From assembly GCA_947246475.1 (NCBI GenBank), contig CAMXSH010000010.1, positions 1 through 59,904 on the forward strand: a DNA stretch of 59,904 nucleotides, in the 5' to 3' direction. This DNA comes from an uncultured Roseburia sp. Its GTDB lineage: Bacteria; Bacillota; Clostridia; Lachnospirales; Lachnospiraceae. Below, piece after piece: positions 4,619-47,453 of this stretch; position 1 is the stretch's first letter, and the number at the start of each line of letters is the position of its first letter. The notes beneath the pieces are model-generated. The model had not been told where the DNA came from and did no database searches. It was given only the letters and a program-made list of their open reading frames with translations. The position numbers and the translations under genes are program-made.

Positions 4619-5015
4619 TGAATATTATCAGTAGGAATGAATTGATAACTCTTTATCACGCTTCAAAGTCGGGAATTCATGGCGCTATTGCACCTATAAG
4701 CCGGGAACAATGCGATTTTGGAAAAGGGTTTTACGTGGGAACTGACCGAAAACAGCCGCTTACTTTAATTTGTAATTATCCGAAGGCAAAAATATATATA
4801 TTCTTGAGGAATTAAATGATGAAGTAAAGGGACTTAGAAAGGCTGACACAACCTATTCCGTGGAAGTAATGTACTGGGCAGGGTATACCTGTCGCTGCTG
4901 GCATTATTATTCAAACGAATACAGCCGTGAAATATATAAAATCGCTGATGCCAAAAGGATGAATGAAGTCGGAGGCTCTTTGAGTAATTCTAGAATTATC
5001 AGTAATCATTACTAG
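4618..5015 (+). pseudogene. Truncated DUF3990-type protein joined to a foreign tail fragment
   Basis: The ATG at 4618 overlaps the degV stop (TAATG). The frame gives 65 residues that match the start of DUF3990 proteins: LYHASKSGIHG, then FGKGFYVGTD and a second motif ending LICNYPKAK. It then breaks at about 4800 and stops. Immediately after, in another frame (4803-5015), lies a different tail (LEELNDEVKGLRKADTTYS, then EVMYWAGYTCRCWHYYSNEY and SREIYKIADAKRMNE) with no start codon of its own. DUF3990 proteins are normally about 150-170 residues, so the first piece lacks more than half. The second piece I cannot assign to a family. The join looks like a deletion between two neighbouring accessory genes. 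Confidence 0.6.
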
Positions 5016-5028
5016 ATCGCACTTTGGG

Positions 5029-5062
5029 CAATTACAAGCGGGGAGTACCCCACTTGCAATTG
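5029..5062. repeat. Imperfect inverted repeat between the DUF3990 debris and the XRE gene
   Basis: A 34-base imperfect palindrome: CAATT-CAAG-GGGG arms around AGTA, with two mismatched positions per arm. There is no U-tract on either strand, so it may be a weak terminator for the XRE gene or simply structured RNA. Confidence 0.4.
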
Positions 5063-5093
5063 TTTGCCAGGTAGAAAACCCAAATTTTACTTA

Positions 5094-5699
5094 CTATACA
5101 CCAGCACAGGTAACAGAACCTCCCGCATTTACATCTCCTATCACATTGGCACAGGTAACAGAACCTCTTGTATTTACATCTCCTGTCACATTGACACAGG
5201 TAACGGAACCTCCCGCATTTACATCTCCCTGGACACCTTCGCAGGTGACCGAAGTTCCCGCCGATACATCGCCTTTTATATATCCTTCGATCTGCGCCGA
5301 TCCCCAGATTTCTATACAGAGATTTCCTTTCGGCATTTGATTTGTCTCAATGGCGAGAGGTATTACTGGTATATCCTTTGGGGATTTTCCCTCAAGCTCG
5401 TTCTGAGTAATCACACGGTTCCCAATACATTGGAAAATCCTTACCTTTCCATCATCTGGAAGCTCTATCTTCTCCAGTCTCTGCGGCCTTACAAATTCAC
5501 TTGTCTCTTGCCGCAACAGATCATCCAGACTTACCCCGAGATAATCTGCGATATGTGGAAGATGCATAATATCCGGGCAGGACTGGCCGCACTCCCATTT
5601 ACTGACTGCCTGAACCGAGATGCCAATTTCCCCTGCAAGATCTTCCTGACTCAGATTCTGTACTTTTCTGGCTTCCCTGATCTTTTCACCAATCTTCAT
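5094..5699 (-). CDS. XRE-family regulator with a repetitive, bactofilin-like C-terminal tail
   Basis: 201 residues. Residues about 5-60 form a Cro/C1-type helix-turn-helix (LSQEDLAGEIGISVQAVSKWE, DIMHLPHIADYLGVSLDDLL). Residues about 60-135 are an unassigned linker. From about 135 to the end there are four 15-residue repeats of the form GDVNAGGSVTCANVI, the first pair diverged (GDVSAGTSVTCEGVQ). The repeats resemble the short-period beta-helix of polymer-forming/bactofilin-like domains, with one cysteine per turn. The DNA behind them is a 45-base tandem repeat. The target operator and signal are unknown. Clostridia carry many XRE regulators with extra C-terminal sensor regions, but I do not recognise a named one. 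Confidence 0.85.
   Translation of the reverse strand: MKIGEKIREARKVQNLSQEDLAGEIGISVQAVSKWECGQSCPDIMHLPHIADYLGVSLDDLLRQETSEFVRPQRLEKIELPDDGKVRIFQCIGNRVITQNELEGKSPKDIPVIPLAIETNQMPKGNLCIEIWGSAQIEGYIKGDVSAGTSVTCEGVQGDVNAGGSVTCVNVTGDVNTRGSVTCANVIGDVNAGGSVTCAGV
5107..5286 (-). repeat. Four 45-bp tandem repeats inside the XRE gene
   Basis: Copies start at 5107, 5152, 5197 and 5242, exactly 45 bases apart. The first three are almost identical and the fourth is diverged. The period keeps the frame and encodes the 15-residue repeats, so copy number could vary by slippage without breaking the gene. Confidence 0.85.
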
Positions 5700-5855
5700 A
5701 ATTTCTGCCTCCTTTTCCTACATAACAATATCATGATGCCTCGGATTGCTTCGTTGTTTCACAACTCCCACTATCATTATAGCTTCCCGATCCTGACAGG
5801 AACAGCAACCATCCGTAGATATCCAATCAACCATTAGTTGAACCCCGAATGGTTC

Positions 5856-7445
5856 TCAAAGCCCTTTTAGCAGCCCCTCTACACCCTCTCTTTCATAGAT
5901 CCCCCGGTAATACTCCACCTCATCCTGGATCAGGCTGTCGATGACCCGCATCCCCAGGAGCTCTACCGGCGCCTTATCATCTGTCATCACAAGATCTCCG
6001 GCTTCATAGGGCTGCATTCCGTCAAGTATTTTTTGCATAAGTCCTGTGAGATCTGTGTCGGTCTCAGCAGCAATCCCTCTTCGGAAGCGCTCCACGGTCT
6101 CCCTGGAATTAAAGGCATATAAGGCACGGTTTGTACATCCAGGCACATCTATCGTATATACATGTTTAAAAACGCTGCCGATGGTATCCGACAGATATTG
6201 GTTGATATCCCCTTCCTCGCTTCCCTTCATATTCAGGTTCACCGCCATTACCCCGCCCTCTTTCAAATGAGCTTGTACAAGGGTAAAAAATTCAAAGGAG
6301 GACATCTGGAAGGGAATGGTAATATCCTGAAAAGCATCTACCAGGATCACATCATATTTTTTATCCACAGCGTTCAGATACGCCCTGCCGTCATAAGTAG
6401 CCACTGGTATATCTTCTGGCTGCTGAAAGTACTGCTTCGCAAGTTCTGTGATTTTCTCATCGATTTCCACACCCTCGATATGAATATTGTCAAAATATCT
6501 CTCACACTGGAGGGCAAAGGTTCCCGTCCCCATGCCAAGGACCAGCACATCCAGATCTTCTTTCTCATTCACTCCTGCCATAACCGGCGCCGCCATCATA
6601 TAATCATAATACATCCCCGACAGACTGGCATCTTTTCGTAGCATCGACTGCACGCCAAACAGCACATTTGTGGAGAGGATCACATTATTTTTGTCCTCTT
6701 TGACCTGCAGATAATTGTATACGGACTCTCCTTCATAGATCAGCCCCTTCTCCCAGAAGGCAAAACCACCGGAGGAACTGCCAGCACAGCACAAAACAAA
6801 CAGCAGCACTCCCACAATTACACCTCTGCTCCCTCTCCTTTTGCTCACAAAATAAATCAGGGCCAGAAGTAAAAGAATTCCCGCAAAGACCAAAAATGTC
6901 ACTGAGGTTCCAAAGGCAGGAATCGTCACGAAGGTGGGCACAAAAGTTCCGATGATGCTGCCTATAGTATTGGAAGCATTCAGCATACCTACGGTCTTTC
7001 CGCTGTCCTCCAAACTGTCTACGGTATATTTTACCAGGGAAGGAGTTACAGTTCCCAAAAGAAACAGAGGAAATACAAAGATGACCATACAGGCGGCAAA
7101 GGCGGCCCAGATCAGAAAATTACTGCTCACGGAAAATATAAGCAGGGCAGAGATTCCCAGTATGATATATTTGCCCACCACAGGAATGGATGCGATCCAC
7201 ACAGCTGCCACAACCATTCTCCGGTACAGCCTGTCCGGATCGGGATTTTTGTCGGCGGCCCTTCCTCCATAAATATTCCCCAGCGCCATGGCGATCATAA
7301 TCGTCCCGATGATGATCGTCCACACGATCTGAGAAGAACTAAAATAGGGAGCCAGCAGGCGGCTGGCTCCGAGCTCCACTGCCATCACAGACATCCCTGC
7401 AAAAAATTCCGTCACATACAAATAGGTCTTATTTTTTAAAATCAT
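5856..7445 (-). CDS. Membrane-anchored spermidine-synthase-like protein (MFS-type membrane half fused to a methyltransferase-fold half)
   Basis: 529 residues from ATG 7445, which follows GAGAGGAG by five bases; the longer reading frame to 7496 runs into a terminator and is rejected. The N-terminal 220 or so residues are hydrophobic with about eight predicted membrane segments (LYVTEFFAGMSVMAVELGAS, GTIMIAMALGNIYGG). The C-terminal half is a spermidine-synthase/Rossmann fold: VLGMGTGTFALQCER, then VEIDEKITELAKQYF, then YDVILVDAF. This fusion is common in bacteria and its substrate is generally unknown. No other polyamine gene is nearby, so polyamine synthesis should not be assumed. It has its own unit, cut off from the MATE gene by a terminator. 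Confidence 0.85.
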   Translation of the reverse strand: MILKNKTYLYVTEFFAGMSVMAVELGASRLLAPYFSSSQIVWTIIIGTIMIAMALGNIYGGRAADKNPDPDRLYRRMVVAAVWIASIPVVGKYIILGISALLIFSVSSNFLIWAAFAACMVIFVFPLFLLGTVTPSLVKYTVDSLEDSGKTVGMLNASNTIGSIIGTFVPTFVTIPAFGTSVTFLVFAGILLLLALIYFVSKRRGSRGVIVGVLLFVLCCAGSSSGGFAFWEKGLIYEGESVYNYLQVKEDKNNVILSTNVLFGVQSMLRKDASLSGMYYDYMMAAPVMAGVNEKEDLDVLVLGMGTGTFALQCERYFDNIHIEGVEIDEKITELAKQYFQQPEDIPVATYDGRAYLNAVDKKYDVILVDAFQDITIPFQMSSFEFFTLVQAHLKEGGVMAVNLNMKGSEEGDINQYLSDTIGSVFKHVYTIDVPGCTNRALYAFNSRETVERFRRGIAAETDTDLTGLMQKILDGMQPYEAGDLVMTDDKAPVELLGMRVIDSLIQDEVEYYRGIYEREGVEGLLKGL

Positions 7446-41424: not shown

Positions 41425-44121
41425 CTACTCTGTGGCGATAAACACAGCTCTGAGATAAAATAGTGTTGGGATCACAAATAATGCGACAAAAAAGATGATA
41501 AACACCCCGATAAAAATCCCATATGCAGCATAGCCGGCAAGATCCAGCGCCCTTTCAGGAATAACCACTTTTTTTCTGGCGAAGACAAATGCCGCCAGCG
41601 CTAACAAAGCGCAGATTGATAGCACGGCTCCCACTTTCTGTCCTGGAGCAGTATATCTCAGTCTGATATCATTCTTACCTTTGACAACAGGTATAGAAAT
41701 CATTCCATCCATATTCAGGATATCCGACACCTTTTCTCCATTTACTTTACACTCCCAGCCCTCATCATAGGAAATAGGAAGAAAGAGATGAGATTTGGCC
41801 ACACCCTCCAGTTCAATGTCCACACCAGACCTGCCCTGTTCCAGAGACACAATCTTGGGATTTTCCTTTTTCACTTTCTCAATCCCGTTTACAAAGACAG
41901 CATGATCCAGCATTCCCAGATGAAGAGCCGATGCACTCACTCCACCGCTAAACTGAACCTGGACAGTCTCATTTTGAAAAACTCCCAAACATATGAAACC
42001 ATTTCCAAAATCTGCGGGGTAACTCCGGTTCTCCATGGAAGAAGACGCCGGAATACGCACCGGAACTCCGTTCACCGTGATCTCCACTGGATGATCATCT
42101 GTATTCGTCCCATAAAAATACAGTATCTTTTTCTCATTTCCTATCTGCATCTCACAGAAATTGTTTTGGATCTGACTGGATACATCCTGGATCAGTTTCT
42201 CCTGGCTTCCAGTAACAGCCGCAAACAAGGCATTTTGTGTCTCAAACTTCTCTGTCTTAGGCACAAGGGAAGGAGTATCTGTATTGATGGCAAAGGGAAG
42301 TTCAAACTTATTTTTAAACAGCTGCAGGATGTCACCATTTGCTTCTATATCCTCACTGAACTCATATAATTCTTCTGGCAGATTATCCTGGCTCAAAAAA
42401 TACTTTATATTAAACAGGGTATCTGAAAAAACTGTTCCTCCCGTATCCAGCAGCTGAGTCCAGTTGATGGAGTAGCCAAGTGCGGCAAACTTGGGCTGTA
42501 CAGATGGATTGATCACATGCCAATAGTTAGAAATCGCCTCTTCGCCAAGCACCAGCGAATATTCTATATGATCCACCTTATAATCTGTATTTTTTATTCT
42601 TTCAAAATCTTTGATCTCAGTCTCCATCTCCGTGGCAACATCATTCGCAGCCTTCAGGTATTCAGCAGAAAAAACTGTTACATTATCTTTGTTAGGAGCA
42701 AAACTTATAACTGAAGTACAAGTTAACTCCACACATAATAATACCAGTATCAGTCCCTTTGCTTTTGACTTTAACAGGCACCAGTAGACCCCGGCAAAAA
42801 TCAGCTCAACAAGAATGCAGAGGAAGCCATCCCCCAATGATGCATAGGAGGACTGCTCACAGTAGGCATGGTATATTCCATAAAACAGCCATCCGGAAAA
42901 AAGCAGGGCAGCCACGCCAATGCCGGCCCAAATCTTTTCTTTCAGCCAATTTCCGGCCGCCTCTACACTCTCTTTGTTTTCCTGATAGAGTACAACCGCC
43001 AGATCAATCAATACGAAAGAAATGATATACACAAACCGCAGCGGCCAGCTGGCACGGCTTCCACCATGCCACAATGCCTCAATTCCCGCAACAGCCACAG
43101 AGAGGAATAAAAGACCGGCCACACAAATACGGCTCTTATATTTTCTAATCTTCTCAGAAACCAGTCCCTTTCCATGTACCAGGAAAAACAATATGCAGGT
43201 AAAAGGCAGAGCAGTGTTTACCAGCATGGTCTCTACCGTCTTCCATTCATGATAACTCCATCGGTTGCCAAGCACCGCCCTGTATACATTTAAAAAGCCT
43301 CCCTCTCCGCTCCTGGGCGTATCAGCTACACAGAGCAGCGCCGGAATACTTACAAAGGCGCTGATCAGTAAAGCTGCACCCACGGACACTCCAAGCCACA
43401 GGGCACACCTTCTTTTCTCCTCTTTTTCCTTTATATCCCAAAAAGTTCTGAGGGCGCTTGAAAGAAAAAGAAAAACCAGTGTAATACAGCCAGTATAGAC
43501 ATTCACCATCATACATAATGCTAAGATAAAGATAAAAAATTTGCACCCTTTCCTGTTAAATATTCGATCCAGCCCGATCATAAGCAGGGGAAGCAGAAAT
43601 GCAATGTCCATCACAAGCATGATCTGAAAATGCACCAGCGTTGCCGCACCAAATGCATACAAGACGCCGCCCGCCATGTGTATAATGTTTTTTACTTCGT
43701 ACTTCCGCAGGTAAAAATACATAGAAAAGGCAATGGCAATCATTTTAAGTATCATAAGGATATTAGCAAAATTCGCCAGGTTATCTCTTGACGAAAAATA
43801 TAAAAACAGATTCAGCGGACTCATCAGCGCCCCCAGAGAGGAAGCTCCTGATATATTCATGCCAAAGGCAGAATTCCATGTAAAAAACGGACTCGCCTGT
43901 CCATGCAGGATATCCCAGACATAGTACATCCCTGCAGGGATCGTCTGCTGAACCATATCACCGCGGGCAATGGTTCCATCACCAAAAGGATAAATATCAT
44001 TCAGCAAATACACCATCAGAACCACAGCACTGATCACAATCGCCATTATAGACAAATCTTTGGTGATTGCTTTCTTTTTTTCTGTCACTGTAAACCAGCT
44101 GCGAATATTTTTTTCTATCAT
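41425..44121 (-). CDS. YfhO family membrane protein
   Basis: 898 residues from ATG 44121 (GGAAGG upstream; 44154 lacks a site). About 12 N-terminal membrane helices with MVQQTIPAGMYYVWDILHGQ plus TWNSAFGMNISG, an extracytoplasmic domain of about 300 residues, and a last helix pair. YfhO proteins are GT-C-fold-type membrane enzymes; B. subtilis YfhO works in lipoteichoic-acid glycosylation, and L. monocytogenes relatives modify teichoic acids. A polyprenyl-phosphate-sugar-dependent glycosyltransfer is therefore likely, with target unknown. No modification partner is adjacent. It may be cotranscribed with the AAA/DUF4276 pair 51 bases upstream. Confidence 0.85.
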   Translation of the reverse strand: MIEKNIRSWFTVTEKKKAITKDLSIMAIVISAVVLMVYLLNDIYPFGDGTIARGDMVQQTIPAGMYYVWDILHGQASPFFTWNSAFGMNISGASSLGALMSPLNLFLYFSSRDNLANFANILMILKMIAIAFSMYFYLRKYEVKNIIHMAGGVLYAFGAATLVHFQIMLVMDIAFLLPLLMIGLDRIFNRKGCKFFIFILALCMMVNVYTGCITLVFLFLSSALRTFWDIKEKEEKRRCALWLGVSVGAALLISAFVSIPALLCVADTPRSGEGGFLNVYRAVLGNRWSYHEWKTVETMLVNTALPFTCILFFLVHGKGLVSEKIRKYKSRICVAGLLFLSVAVAGIEALWHGGSRASWPLRFVYIISFVLIDLAVVLYQENKESVEAAGNWLKEKIWAGIGVAALLFSGWLFYGIYHAYCEQSSYASLGDGFLCILVELIFAGVYWCLLKSKAKGLILVLLCVELTCTSVISFAPNKDNVTVFSAEYLKAANDVATEMETEIKDFERIKNTDYKVDHIEYSLVLGEEAISNYWHVINPSVQPKFAALGYSINWTQLLDTGGTVFSDTLFNIKYFLSQDNLPEELYEFSEDIEANGDILQLFKNKFELPFAINTDTPSLVPKTEKFETQNALFAAVTGSQEKLIQDVSSQIQNNFCEMQIGNEKKILYFYGTNTDDHPVEITVNGVPVRIPASSSMENRSYPADFGNGFICLGVFQNETVQVQFSGGVSASALHLGMLDHAVFVNGIEKVKKENPKIVSLEQGRSGVDIELEGVAKSHLFLPISYDEGWECKVNGEKVSDILNMDGMISIPVVKGKNDIRLRYTAPGQKVGAVLSICALLALAAFVFARKKVVIPERALDLAGYAAYGIFIGVFIIFFVALFVIPTLFYLRAVFIATE

Positions 44122-44172
44122 TGGTCTTTTTCCTTCCTTTTTATATAAATTCAAAATTAATCCACATTGATT

Positions 44173-44823
44173 TTATCTGATTCTCATACGAACTTGAGAC
44201 AAAAAATAGTTAAAACTTGGTGAACTATTGTTATCAATATTCATATATCTACCAATTTCATCCGCCCATTTTGACTTATATTTCCCAATTTCACCATATG
44301 AAGGGCAATCTTTCTTAAATTTTTTTAGTCCACCTTTATAAACAACATTTGCAAGCACCTCCCATGTTCCACAAATGCTGTCCTGCTCATACTCCCTAAA
44401 AGCGCTCTCCCTGGCATTTGGATATGCCTTAAAGAGTGCAGCCCTGTCTCCAAGCAGCCATGCCTCCATCTCCTCTACAGCTATACAGAAGACATGATCA
44501 ATGGAAATCATCGCCCATAACGCCCGTCTATGCAGCTCATCCCTGAACTCATCTATGTTTCTTTGATCATTATCCAATACAATTACAATTAACGCCTCAA
44601 TATTCTGCAGGCTTTTTTCAAAGCCTTTTAAATAAATCCCAAGATCATTAAGCAATTTATACGTTTTCACGTTTGTTGCAGCAATATTCTTTTTAAATCC
44701 ACCAATCCCTTTAAATGCTTTGCAATCATACGTAACTGATCCATTACCCATAAGTAATTTTGTCATAACATGCCTTATCAGCACTTCTCCAGACATATCT
44801 TCTATCAAAAACTGTATATGCAT
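44173..44823 (-). CDS. DUF4276 (TOPRIM-like) protein, partner of an AAA ATPase
   Basis: 216 residues. It matches DUF4276 proteins, which have a TOPRIM-like fold: an N-terminal acidic residue (QFLIEDMSGEVLI, Glu8), an Asp pair after a strand (IVIVLDNDQRN), and a downstream VEEMEAWLLGD. These positions match the metal-binding E/DxD set of TOPRIM nucleases. It lies eight bases after an AAA ATPase gene, a layout also seen in RloA/RloB, AbiL (AbiLi/AbiLii) and PARIS (AAA/DUF4435), which are anti-phage systems. The TOPRIM protein is expected to be the nuclease effector. This reading is inference; I have no proof of nuclease action. Confidence 0.75.
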   Translation of the reverse strand: MHIQFLIEDMSGEVLIRHVMTKLLMGNGSVTYDCKAFKGIGGFKKNIAATNVKTYKLLNDLGIYLKGFEKSLQNIEALIVIVLDNDQRNIDEFRDELHRRALWAMISIDHVFCIAVEEMEAWLLGDRAALFKAYPNARESAFREYEQDSICGTWEVLANVVYKGGLKKFKKDCPSYGEIGKYKSKWADEIGRYMNIDNNSSPSFNYFLSQVRMRIR

Positions 44824-44831
44824 ATAGACTC

Positions 44832-46052
44832 CTATCCAAAATATTTATCGTACCATAAATCTCCAACTTCCACTCCCTCTTCTGTCAGTTCCGTTACAAA
44901 TTCATATTCTGAAGTTCTTCTAGCAGTAGAAAAACCACTTTCATCTTTTTTCAACACCCATACATCATCTGGTTTTAAGGAGTTTACAAAAAATGGACTA
45001 TGAGTGGTAACAAACAGCTGTTTACTGAAACCTGTGCCAGCGCTCTTACGCATCTCCACAGCCAAATCTGATAAGTAATGATGATAAAGACCATTTTCCG
45101 GTTCTTCAATAAATACCAGCTGTCTGGCATTTTTCTCATGAAGCAAAAGATAATATGCAAAAAGCTTCAAAGTTCCATCTGACATTTTATGTGAGAAAAA
45201 AGGTTCAGAAAATCCTTTTTCCCAAAATTGTAAGACCACTTGTCCATTTGGCATTTTAAGGGGCTCAATTTTATCTATTCCTGGAAGCTTAGTTTGTATA
45301 TCAGACAACGTCCTGACAAAATCTGCTTTATTTTCCCTGTACATATACTGCGCTACATTATTAAGATTACTTCCTATTCTGTCCAAATATGGCTGTGGTG
45401 CTGAAGTTTGAATTCTTCTCGCCGCATCCGGAGTAAAATAACATAAATACCAGCTCCTTAGAAATTTCAGAAACTTCTCTATCCGTGAGTATTGTTTCAT
45501 AGCCCCAAGAGTCACTACACCAAGTTTCCGGCTATCCGATAATGAAACAGGTATTTTTACTCCATCTGATACGCCTGTCTCATCATCCTGTCCCCCTGTA
45601 TTTCCCTCAAAAGCATAACCTGTTCCATTCTGGAGATGCAAGAATGATCTTGGACGTCCCTGACTCTCAACTCTCTGCCTCAATCTCTCCTCTGCCACAT
45701 AAGGACGCCCGGACCGATCCAGATCCATCGCCAATTCATAAGTGATAGGACGTGTATTGCTTGATTCCCTATAATATAATTCAAAACGTATCGCATCCTC
45801 AATCCCCTGGGATCGTATTTGTTCAAATCCCCCTCTGTTTCCTGCATCGCATGCTGCCTCTATCCCCATTTCCAGACAATCCGCAATAAATCCAAAGACA
45901 TCTGCTATCGTGCTTTTTCCATTTCCACTGGGACCTATGATCGTAGTCATATTACTTAATGGTTTCTCTTTTTGATGTGAAAGCGTTTTCCCCAGGGTTA
46001 TATCTTTCAAAGACCCATAATTACGAATAGAAATCCCCTCGATTTTTCCCAT
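44832..46052 (-). CDS. AAA family (ABC/SMC-like) ATPase, sensor partner of DUF4276
   Basis: 406 residues from ATG 46052 with AGGAGG five bases upstream; the longer frame to 46127 crosses the promoter and is rejected. Walker A IIGPSGNGKST (40-48), signature-like MSDGTLKLFAY, Walker B LVFIEEPENGL, and the His switch FVTTHSPFF mark the AAA_21/RecF-like group. The large insertion (about residues 60-280) is the part expected to bind a partner or DNA. It pairs with the TOPRIM-like gene, and has its own sigma-A promoter (46093-46121). Confidence 0.8.
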   Translation of the reverse strand: MGKIEGISIRNYGSLKDITLGKTLSHQKEKPLSNMTTIIGPSGNGKSTIADVFGFIADCLEMGIEAACDAGNRGGFEQIRSQGIEDAIRFELYYRESSNTRPITYELAMDLDRSGRPYVAEERLRQRVESQGRPRSFLHLQNGTGYAFEGNTGGQDDETGVSDGVKIPVSLSDSRKLGVVTLGAMKQYSRIEKFLKFLRSWYLCYFTPDAARRIQTSAPQPYLDRIGSNLNNVAQYMYRENKADFVRTLSDIQTKLPGIDKIEPLKMPNGQVVLQFWEKGFSEPFFSHKMSDGTLKLFAYYLLLHEKNARQLVFIEEPENGLYHHYLSDLAVEMRKSAGTGFSKQLFVTTHSPFFVNSLKPDDVWVLKKDESGFSTARRTSEYEFVTELTEEGVEVGDLWYDKYFG

Positions 46053-46092
46053 CACAACCTCCTGACCTTTCAACACATATACGTTTTTTATC

Positions 46093-46121
46093 ATTATAAG
46101 TGTTCTTCCGAAAAAAATCAA
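46093..46121 (-). promoter_or_regulatory. Sigma-A promoter for the AAA/DUF4276 pair
   Basis: TTGATT (46121-46116), 17-base spacer, TATAAT (46098-46093), 40 bases before the AAA gene start. Divergent from the fabF promoter about 30 bases away. Confidence 0.65.
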
Positions 46122-46151
46122 TGCCAACTGTCCAAAGATACACAGGGCATC

Positions 46152-46180
46152 TTGACCGCCTTTTCTTATTTTGATACAAT
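46152..46180 (+). promoter_or_regulatory. Sigma-A promoter for fabF
   Basis: TTGACC (46152-46157), 17-base spacer, TACAAT (46175-46180), followed by TGGAGG and the ATG at 46206. Confidence 0.7.
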
Positions 46181-46205
46181 ATTAGCCAAATGGAGGTATA
46201 CATAA

Positions 46206-47453
46206 ATGAAAGAAAGATTAGTGATTACCGGAATGGGAGCAGTGACCCCCATCGGTATTGGAGTAGAAACTTATTGGAATAATCTAATTGCTGGCAAATG
46301 CGGCGTAGGGCGGATCACCCGCTTTGACCCGGAAGCATCACCAGTTAAAATCGCCGCCCAGGTAAAGGATTTTGATCCGGATGAGTTTATGACGAAAAAA
46401 CAGAGCCGCGAGATGGATCTGTTCATGCAGTACGGCTATGCCGCTGGTGAAGAAGCACTGAAAGATGGCGGTATAAAGGACACGATTCCTGCTGACCGCA
46501 TGGGTGTCGTAGTAGGAACTGCCATGGCAGGCGTGTCTATTATTGCGGAAACCCAGGACGGACTGAGCACTGGGGAACACAAAAAAGTTAGTCCTCGTTT
46601 TGTTCCTAAGTTTATCGGCAACATCGCCGCGGCGCAGATCGCCATCGCCAAAGGCTACCGCGGACCAAGCCTTACGGTCAGCACCGCATGTTCCTCCGGG
46701 GCTGATGCCATTTCCACAGCTGCCATGCTGCTTCTAGCCGGGGAAGCCGATGCCATCCTTGTAGTAGGCGCTGAGGCAAGTCTTTGTCCGGTGGTAGTGG
46801 CTGGTCTTGCCTCCGCTCATGCTCTCAGTACGAACAACGACAATCCCCAGACTGCCAGCCGGCCATTTGACAAGACCAGAGACGGTTTTGTATTTGGTGA
46901 GGGCGGCGGAGCTCTTTTGCTGGAGACAGAAGCCCATGCTGTGGCAAGAGGCGCAAAGATCCACGCGGAGCTGATGGGCTTTGCCAACTGCACCGACGGG
47001 CATCACGTGACAGCTCCCCATCCGGAAGGGATTGGAGCCATCGCCTGCATGGACAGTGCCATCAAAAAAGCAGGACTGGTGCCGGAGGACATCGGTTACA
47101 TCAATACCCACGGCACTTCTACTCCGATGGGTGACACCATTGAGACCAACGCCATCAAATCCCTCTTTGGAGATCATGCCTACCAGATGGCTGTGACTTC
47201 CACTAAAGGTGCTACCGGGCATATGATGGGAGCCGGCGGTGTTACTGAGACCATTGCCTGCATCAAAGCCGTTCAGGAGGGTGTGATCCCGCCAACGATG
47301 AATCTGAACACGCCGGATGAAGCGTGCGACCTGAACTACGTCCCGAATAAGGCAGAAAAACGGGATGTCCGGTATGCCATGACCAACGCCTTTGGGTTTG
47401 GCGGGCAGAATTCAAGCCTGATCATCGGAAAATATGAAGCCTCTGTATCATAA
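46206..47453 (+). CDS. fabF: Beta-ketoacyl-ACP synthase II
   Basis: 415 residues, normal for the family. It condenses malonyl-ACP with acyl-ACP in fatty-acid chain growth. The catalytic triad is present: Cys in STACSSGADA, His in NTHGTSTPMGD and His in TKGATGHMMGAGG, with the Lys of STKGATGH. It is not in a fab cluster here and may be a second copy or a lineage-specific enzyme. An in-house promoter and ribosome site precede it. Confidence 0.96.
   Translation: MKERLVITGMGAVTPIGIGVETYWNNLIAGKCGVGRITRFDPEASPVKIAAQVKDFDPDEFMTKKQSREMDLFMQYGYAAGEEALKDGGIKDTIPADRMGVVVGTAMAGVSIIAETQDGLSTGEHKKVSPRFVPKFIGNIAAAQIAIAKGYRGPSLTVSTACSSGADAISTAAMLLLAGEADAILVVGAEASLCPVVVAGLASAHALSTNNDNPQTASRPFDKTRDGFVFGEGGGALLLETEAHAVARGAKIHAELMGFANCTDGHHVTAPHPEGIGAIACMDSAIKKAGLVPEDIGYINTHGTSTPMGDTIETNAIKSLFGDHAYQMAVTSTKGATGHMMGAGGVTETIACIKAVQEGVIPPTMNLNTPDEACDLNYVPNKAEKRDVRYAMTNAFGFGGQNSSLIIGKYEASVS

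Follow-up and report, generated by a model that had tools for sequence, protein, structure and literature searches.

What is the function of a compact two-gene cassette set between yfhO and a beta-ketoacyl synthase (fabF-like) gene in an uncultured Roseburia sp., and does it belong to an antiviral defence system? The cassette lies in a stretch of 59,904 nucleotides (contig CAMXSH010000010.1 of assembly GCA_947246475.1; hereafter the window), where its two open genes occupy the minus strand and the flanking genes were identified by Pfam matches. A sequence-only reading had proposed a candidate anti-phage system. This was supported in part, by the defence and mobile contexts of some relatives, but the reading missed that the pair is already catalogued: judged by profile matches, it is an instance of the candidate defence system HEC-01, and as a type it is not new. 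We put at roughly 0.7 the probability that the pair is a split OLD-type module, in which a sensor ATPase restrains a Toprim-like nuclease that is released on infection.

44832..46052, minus strand: ABC/OLD-type ATPase (HEC-01A), 406 amino acids, putative sensor and regulator (PADLOC, AAA_21, homologue-based start, model)
44173..44823, minus strand: Toprim-like protein (HEC-01B, DUF4276-related), 216 amino acids, putative nuclease effector

Assignment of the pair to HEC-01

Both window proteins match the PADLOC HEC-01 profiles over nearly their full length, and the genes are adjacent, as in HEC-01. The ATPase matched HEC-01A with an E-value of 3.8e-165 (547.8 bits, residues 26-431 of the long open reading frame, ORF), and the partner matched HEC-01B with an E-value of 2.2e-97 (323.1 bits, residues 1-215). 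The assignment is by profile scores and E-values, and not by the PADLOC system rule or its cut-offs. Apart from its insertion site, no feature was found that sets the window copy apart from HEC-01.

An ORF and sequence check placed both genes, and the 8 bases between them (44824-44831), where the sequence-only reading had them. The mechanically called ATPase ORF starts with TTG at 46127; however, for most homologues the alignment begins at MGKIEG or its equivalent, encoded from an ATG at 46052 that is preceded by AGGAGG, and the protein is therefore best taken as 406 amino acids long.

The ratio of non-synonymous to synonymous divergence (dN/dS), calculated against the copy in the same-genus genome G001, was ∼0.03 for the ATPase and ∼0.07 for the partner. 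Since, according to the record titles of homologues, HEC-01-like pairs also recur across several phyla, the pairing is more than a chance arrangement. Broken relatives do exist (in genome G004 and at locus L013), but a locally decayed or non-functional relic is very improbable for the window copy, given these low ratios, the two open genes and the ribosome-binding-site-like sequences that accompany them.

The ATPase

The ATPase matched the Pfam families AAA_21 (94 bits; cut-off 27) and AAA_15 (51.6 bits). All of the motifs ascribed to it earlier were recovered: Walker A, an MSDGT signature, Walker B (LVFIEEPENG) and a TTHSP His switch. When 28 sequences were aligned, with the window copy included and the split gene of L013, the short L030 and L026 omitted, the core residues of these motifs showed little or no variation.

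45912..45935, minus strand: Walker A GPSGNGKS, ATPase residues 40-47; G40, G45, K46 and S47 invariant in the 28 aligned sequences

The predicted model (predicted local distance difference test score, pLDDT, 91.8) resembles PtuA and the heads of SMC and Rad50, with PtuA as the top Foldseek matches (E-value 4e-14).

Divergent pairs were also seen at loci L027 and L029, in which the ATPase is 24-27% identical and carries LSAAEE in place of the MSDGT signature, while the partner keeps its invariant residues.

The Toprim-like partner

The DUF4276 label given to the partner by the sequence-only reading could be retained only in a loose sense: a match to PF14103 exists, but its score of 27.3 bits lies under the curated cut-off of 30.2, and the protein is at best a related but divergent member of this family as far as its sequence indicates. 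For this reason, the assignment of the partner relies on PADLOC and on the predicted model. A search of NCBIfam gave nothing meaningful (best E-value 0.16), sequence searches of the PDB with the protein or its profile gave no match under E-values of 0.1 and 1, respectively, and Foldseek with the partner model returned no matches at an E-value ≤ 0.001.

The model displays a Toprim-like topology with a helical part and conserved acidic residues, at odds with a protein devoid of a Toprim metal site. It best resembles the Toprim regions of OLD nucleases, tied with one protein of unknown function, and next AriB of PARIS. The tied match is PDB entry 2p62 (Pyrococcus PH0156), which may be a related Toprim protein. 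The Glu8, DND (84-86) and VEEMEAW motifs named earlier are all present, and the following candidate active-site positions were invariant in 29 of 29 aligned sequences (the split L013 and the short L030 omitted).

44800..44802, minus strand: E8, putative Toprim glutamate after strand 1; follows strand 2-7 of the model
44566..44574, minus strand: DxD motif, D84 and D86
44458..44475, minus strand: EEMEAW (residues 117-122); E118 and E120 are the proposed counterparts of OLD T506 and E508
44275..44277, minus strand: K183, proposed counterpart of the OLD catalytic lysine K562; in helix 176-191 of the model

In the predicted model these residues match the OLD/Toprim site set, i.e. a glutamate, a DxD motif, an acidic residue in the helical part and a lysine. 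The roles of the OLD metal-site residues were taken from PMC6755086, and the correspondence was drawn from residue order and topology, not from superposed coordinates. A second acidic residue four positions after the Toprim glutamate (E404 in Bp OLD) was absent, position 12 being glycine in 27 and serine in two of the 29 sequences.

Comparison with known systems

The composition is parallel to those of PARIS and AbiL, though with an effector from another family, as had been proposed: an OLD-type ATPase is combined with a Toprim-like partner that has no DUF4435, AbiLii or RloB match. PARIS (AriA with the DUF4435 protein AriB; a proposed class 4 OLD system) likewise has separate ATPase and Toprim genes, and AriB is among the best structural matches of the partner model. 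The AAA_21 and AAA_15 scores of the window ATPase also exceed the thresholds of 27 and 32 given in PMC9122126. However, the ATPase has 406 amino acids compared to 464 in the solved AriA, and Pfam gave no DUF4435 match in the partner at an E-value ≤ 1 (the HMMER filters drop most matches above ∼0.1); identity with PARIS was rejected on the latter ground.

With class 2 OLD proteins (Bp OLD, and GajA of Gabija) the partner shares the Toprim-like fold with its helical part and the candidate metal-site residues in the same order. In contrast to these, the window ATPase and Toprim are encoded by separate genes and there is no helicase gene beside the pair. Gabija was thus ruled out, the ATPase and Toprim not being fused and the flanking genes encoding YfhO and the ketoacyl synthase instead of GajB.

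The ATPase matched the NCBIfam model of MAD3, but at 84.2 bits, far under the curated cut-off of 420; this score is too low for MADS, and the Pfam matches of the two flanking genes do not identify either as a MADS gene. It also matched AbiLi of PADLOC (77.5 bits), while the partner matched neither AbiLii nor RloB at an E-value ≤ 1 in Pfam and PADLOC, libraries which we take to contain both models; AbiL and RloAB were set aside for want of a matching effector. Finally, PtuA, the ATPase of Septu and of retrons, has PtuB as its partner (an HNH nuclease according to the titles of retron I-A entries) and not a Toprim protein.

Pairing of the two genes in other genomes

The ATPase gene was found directly upstream of the partner in 29 of the 30 genome loci retrieved with the partner, the spacing between the two genes ranging from -11 to 42 bases (median, 10). 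The exception was L026, where no ATPase match was detected in the 607 upstream bases, tblastn included. At L030 only ∼400 upstream bases are on record, and the C-terminal end of the ATPase was seen there (query 344-406); at L013 both genes are split. The ATPase was also adjacent in all four viral-contig loci and in all seven further loci from the same family, two of which repeat earlier ones (L087 repeats L003, and L089 repeats L002).

Genomic contexts of the relatives

The neighbours of the pair were taken as up to two ORFs of at least 100 amino acids per side, chosen greedily by length, which yielded 104 ORFs from 29 loci (L001 was excluded as the same site). Twenty of these, picked as large or located beside the pair, were scanned singly, as were seven ORFs from L091, L092 and L093 among the further family loci; the neighbours of L088 and L090 lie outside the single scans. 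The clustering with restriction and other defence genes that the sequence-only reading had suggested looking for was observed in some relatives:

L007: pair flanked by a type I methylase and specificity subunit on one side and by a type I restriction enzyme on the other
L013: pair, with its genes split, between an HmaA match and HmaB
L005: pair preceded by HmaA matches
L010: pair flanked by two ORFs that match separate regions of a type IIG enzyme
L004: pair followed by PDC-M38A and then by a type I restriction enzyme
L020: pair preceded by a type I specificity subunit
L092: BrxC directly upstream of the pair

Defence neighbours were thus present at at least six of the 29 loci and at least one of the five further non-duplicate family loci, counts that have no random control. 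Embedding in Hma loci, from which the HEC name derives, was seen in the relatives L013 and L005 and not in the window copy. A GajB-like helicase at L016 and a MAD3-like ATPase at L093 (166 bits) are encoded on the opposite strand and were left out of these counts. The pooled scan of the neighbours also holds an AbiLi match (2.6e-70), whose locus was not traced.

Many homologues, though, sit outside recognised defence loci, and seven of the 20 singly scanned neighbours had no PADLOC match at 1e-20, nor had five of the seven from L091-L093 at 1e-15. Housekeeping neighbours also occur, e.g. methionyl-tRNA synthetase at L025. This last point, the precedent of Cran1 and the resemblance of the ATPase model to SMC and Rad50 heads as well as to PtuA could indicate a regulator or an auxiliary enzyme of DNA repair or DNA processing (Rad50-, RecF- or Cran1-like) with a cellular role. 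We regard such a role as quite unlikely, in view of the accessory distribution with empty sites described below, the prophage, plasmid and restriction-modification locations, and the lack of any recurring partner family: no fixed metabolic partner was found, and no Pfam family matched more than four of the 104 neighbour ORFs (first 25 families per pooled scan).

Mobile contexts comprised a prophage on a Rahnella plasmid, a conjugative Pseudomonas plasmid and IMG/VR contigs. For the viral contigs, 28 of 61 neighbouring ORFs were scanned in a pool (L094, L096 and L097) and 10 singly. The single scans revealed clear head and packaging genes in L097, a phage-type repressor in L094 and only an integrase in L096; L095 seems to be the Rahnella prophage already represented by L077. 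In L097 the pair (4748-6630) is flanked on one side by a gene for a gpA-like replication nickase and on the other by the genes for portal and terminase. Read from its gene order, this prophage appears to be P2-like, and the pair would occupy the position of the P2 old/tin hotspot; the gpA-gpQ interval of P2-like phages, home of old and tin, is described as an antiviral hotspot in PMC9122126. A record labelled as a phage (MT836340) was dropped from the phage evidence, since it is unverified and unannotated and its ORFs resemble, by eye, recombinases and housekeeping genes. When E. coli genomes were searched at the DNA level with the Rahnella pair, no matches were returned; as this was a single divergent query, HEC-01 may still occur in E. 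coli.

The copies carried by a conjugative plasmid and by prophage-like elements could also be explained by a module of the toxin-antitoxin type, or one that maintains plasmids or prophages; the ATPase would then neutralise a Toprim-like nuclease, and defence would be incidental. The broken Toprim-like gene beside an intact ATPase ORF in G004 is what would be expected if the nuclease were the costly part. However, L013 has both genes split and not the partner alone, and embedding in restriction-modification and Hma loci fits defence better. Furthermore, in PARIS, the closest studied analogue, loss of one or the other gene caused no toxicity but left the cells undefended, according to PMC9122126. 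A maintenance module is therefore unlikely.

The cassette occupies a site between a resident promoter and yfhO

An intact pair was present in two of 37 genomes of the same genus, the source genome (G000) and G001. Altogether, four of the 61 genomes searched had a match, that of G058 being a stretch of 30 residues only. In G004 (L070, 4671-6187) the intact ATPase ORF is 60% identical, and this copy lies on a contig other than that carrying fabF. At the family level, eight of 299 genomes, the source genome included, had a match at an E-value ≤ 1e-20.

44138..46077: segment shared with G001 and missing from G016, G017, G020 and G024; boundaries accurate to within a few bases
46093..46121, minus strand: sigma-A-like promoter TTGATT-17-TATAAT; same hexamers and spacing before yfhO in the four empty-site relatives

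In G016, G017, G020 and G024, yfhO stands beside fabF with only a short spacer between them, i.e. the site is empty, while in G001 the insertion is also present, at the corresponding position (92.7% identity over 2180 bases). A clean unit of ∼1.94 kb was therefore either acquired or deleted in the interval from a resident promoter to the ribosome-binding site of yfhO. As the sequence-only reading had stated, the flanking genes are conserved ones and there are no traces of a mobile element: the inserted segment holds only the two genes, and no direct repeats were obvious by eye at its ends. At the other fabF loci, including those of G003 and G030 (the next closest by fabF), yfhO was not found beside fabF, and these are uninformative on the site.

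The pair had also been credited with its own promoter, and this proved wrong. A promoter scan of the region, weak evidence alone, gave seven sites compared to 7.7 expected from shuffled sequences. In all four empty-site sequences, however, the TTGATT-17-TATAAT promoter is kept with the same spacing and leads straight to the yfhO ribosome-binding site, which places the cassette between a resident promoter and yfhO. No terminator-like sites were found in 43900-46400 (1.2 expected by chance), and the pair is probably co-transcribed with yfhO. Judged from positions 44121-44172 of the window, yfhO appears to follow the cassette within one transcription unit, and the insertion may therefore change yfhO expression.

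The synonymous divergence (dS) between G000 and G001 was 0.31 for the ATPase and 0.38 for the partner, compared to 0.59 for fabF, 0.46 for lrgA/lrgB, 0.86 for yfhO and 0.37 for SpoIIID (43 codons only). The four empty-site genomes and G001 are at similar distances from G000 (dS of 0.46-0.61 for fabF and 0.60-0.72 for yfhO in the empty-site genomes). These values hint at transfer of the cassette between lineages, the alternative being ancestral presence with losses. The G+C content is ∼0.35-0.43 over the cassette and 0.40-0.57 in most flanking windows.

Proposed mechanism

The defence reading of the pair is fairly well supported by what was computed here, namely the pairing, the predicted fold, the conserved candidate metal-site residues, the defence or prophage contexts of some relatives, the accessory distribution and the clean insertion; complex formation, release, nuclease activity and outcome are what we infer. 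In PARIS, the Toprim nuclease is kept in check by a hexamer of the ATPase, and binding of a phage protein such as Ocr ends this restraint (PMC12409363); by this analogy, a sensor ATPase with a restrained two-metal nuclease is the likeliest scheme. The ATPase, as sensor and regulator, would be co-expressed with the separate Toprim-like protein and, in the uninfected cell, would keep it inactive, as AriA does AriB. A phage product or DNA state would then alter the ATPase and release the Toprim-like protein, which would cut nucleic acid (tRNA or DNA) with two metal ions, and infection would be stopped, probably at the expense of the cell.

The copies embedded in restriction-like systems raise the possibility that the trigger is an anti-restriction product. 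A more specific and rather doubtful possibility, which would account for the copies inside type I restriction-modification, type IIG and Hma loci and beside BrxC, is that HEC-01 guards other defence systems: the ATPase would sense phage proteins that disable restriction-like systems, and the Toprim protein, as a nuclease family separate from AriB and RloB, would put an end to the infection by cutting a particular host RNA such as a tRNA. If so, anti-restriction sensing would have arisen more than once among split OLD modules.

HEC-01 in the literature

HEC stands for Hma-embedded candidate, and several HECs, including HEC-06, have shown antiviral activity (PMC12988326, which cites a preprint by Payne and colleagues for these systems). 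HEC-01 is named among the predicted systems of Desulfovibrio piger in PMC12724379; beyond this, no relevant mention was found in the literature searched, and the Payne preprint, which lay outside the search, may say more. No mention of DUF4276 was found in that literature either. As far as it shows, the structural reading of the effector, the copy at the P2 hotspot and the insertion behind a resident promoter are new. With the effector read as an OLD-type Toprim protein and its candidate active-site residues named, HEC-01 becomes directly testable. The empty-site comparison shows that a defence-type cassette was cleanly inserted or removed downstream of a promoter already in place, and its location between non-defence genes is the type of site that island-based searches would miss.

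A second, different pair of an ATPase and a DUF4276-like protein was observed in the same genome (contig C4, 76000-84000; L068, 1841-3761). Its ATPase matches PDC-M25A (2.4e-79) and its partner weakly matches DUF4276 (26.5 bits); an ORF of 584 amino acids, recombinase-like by eye, lies ∼1.3 kb beyond this pair.
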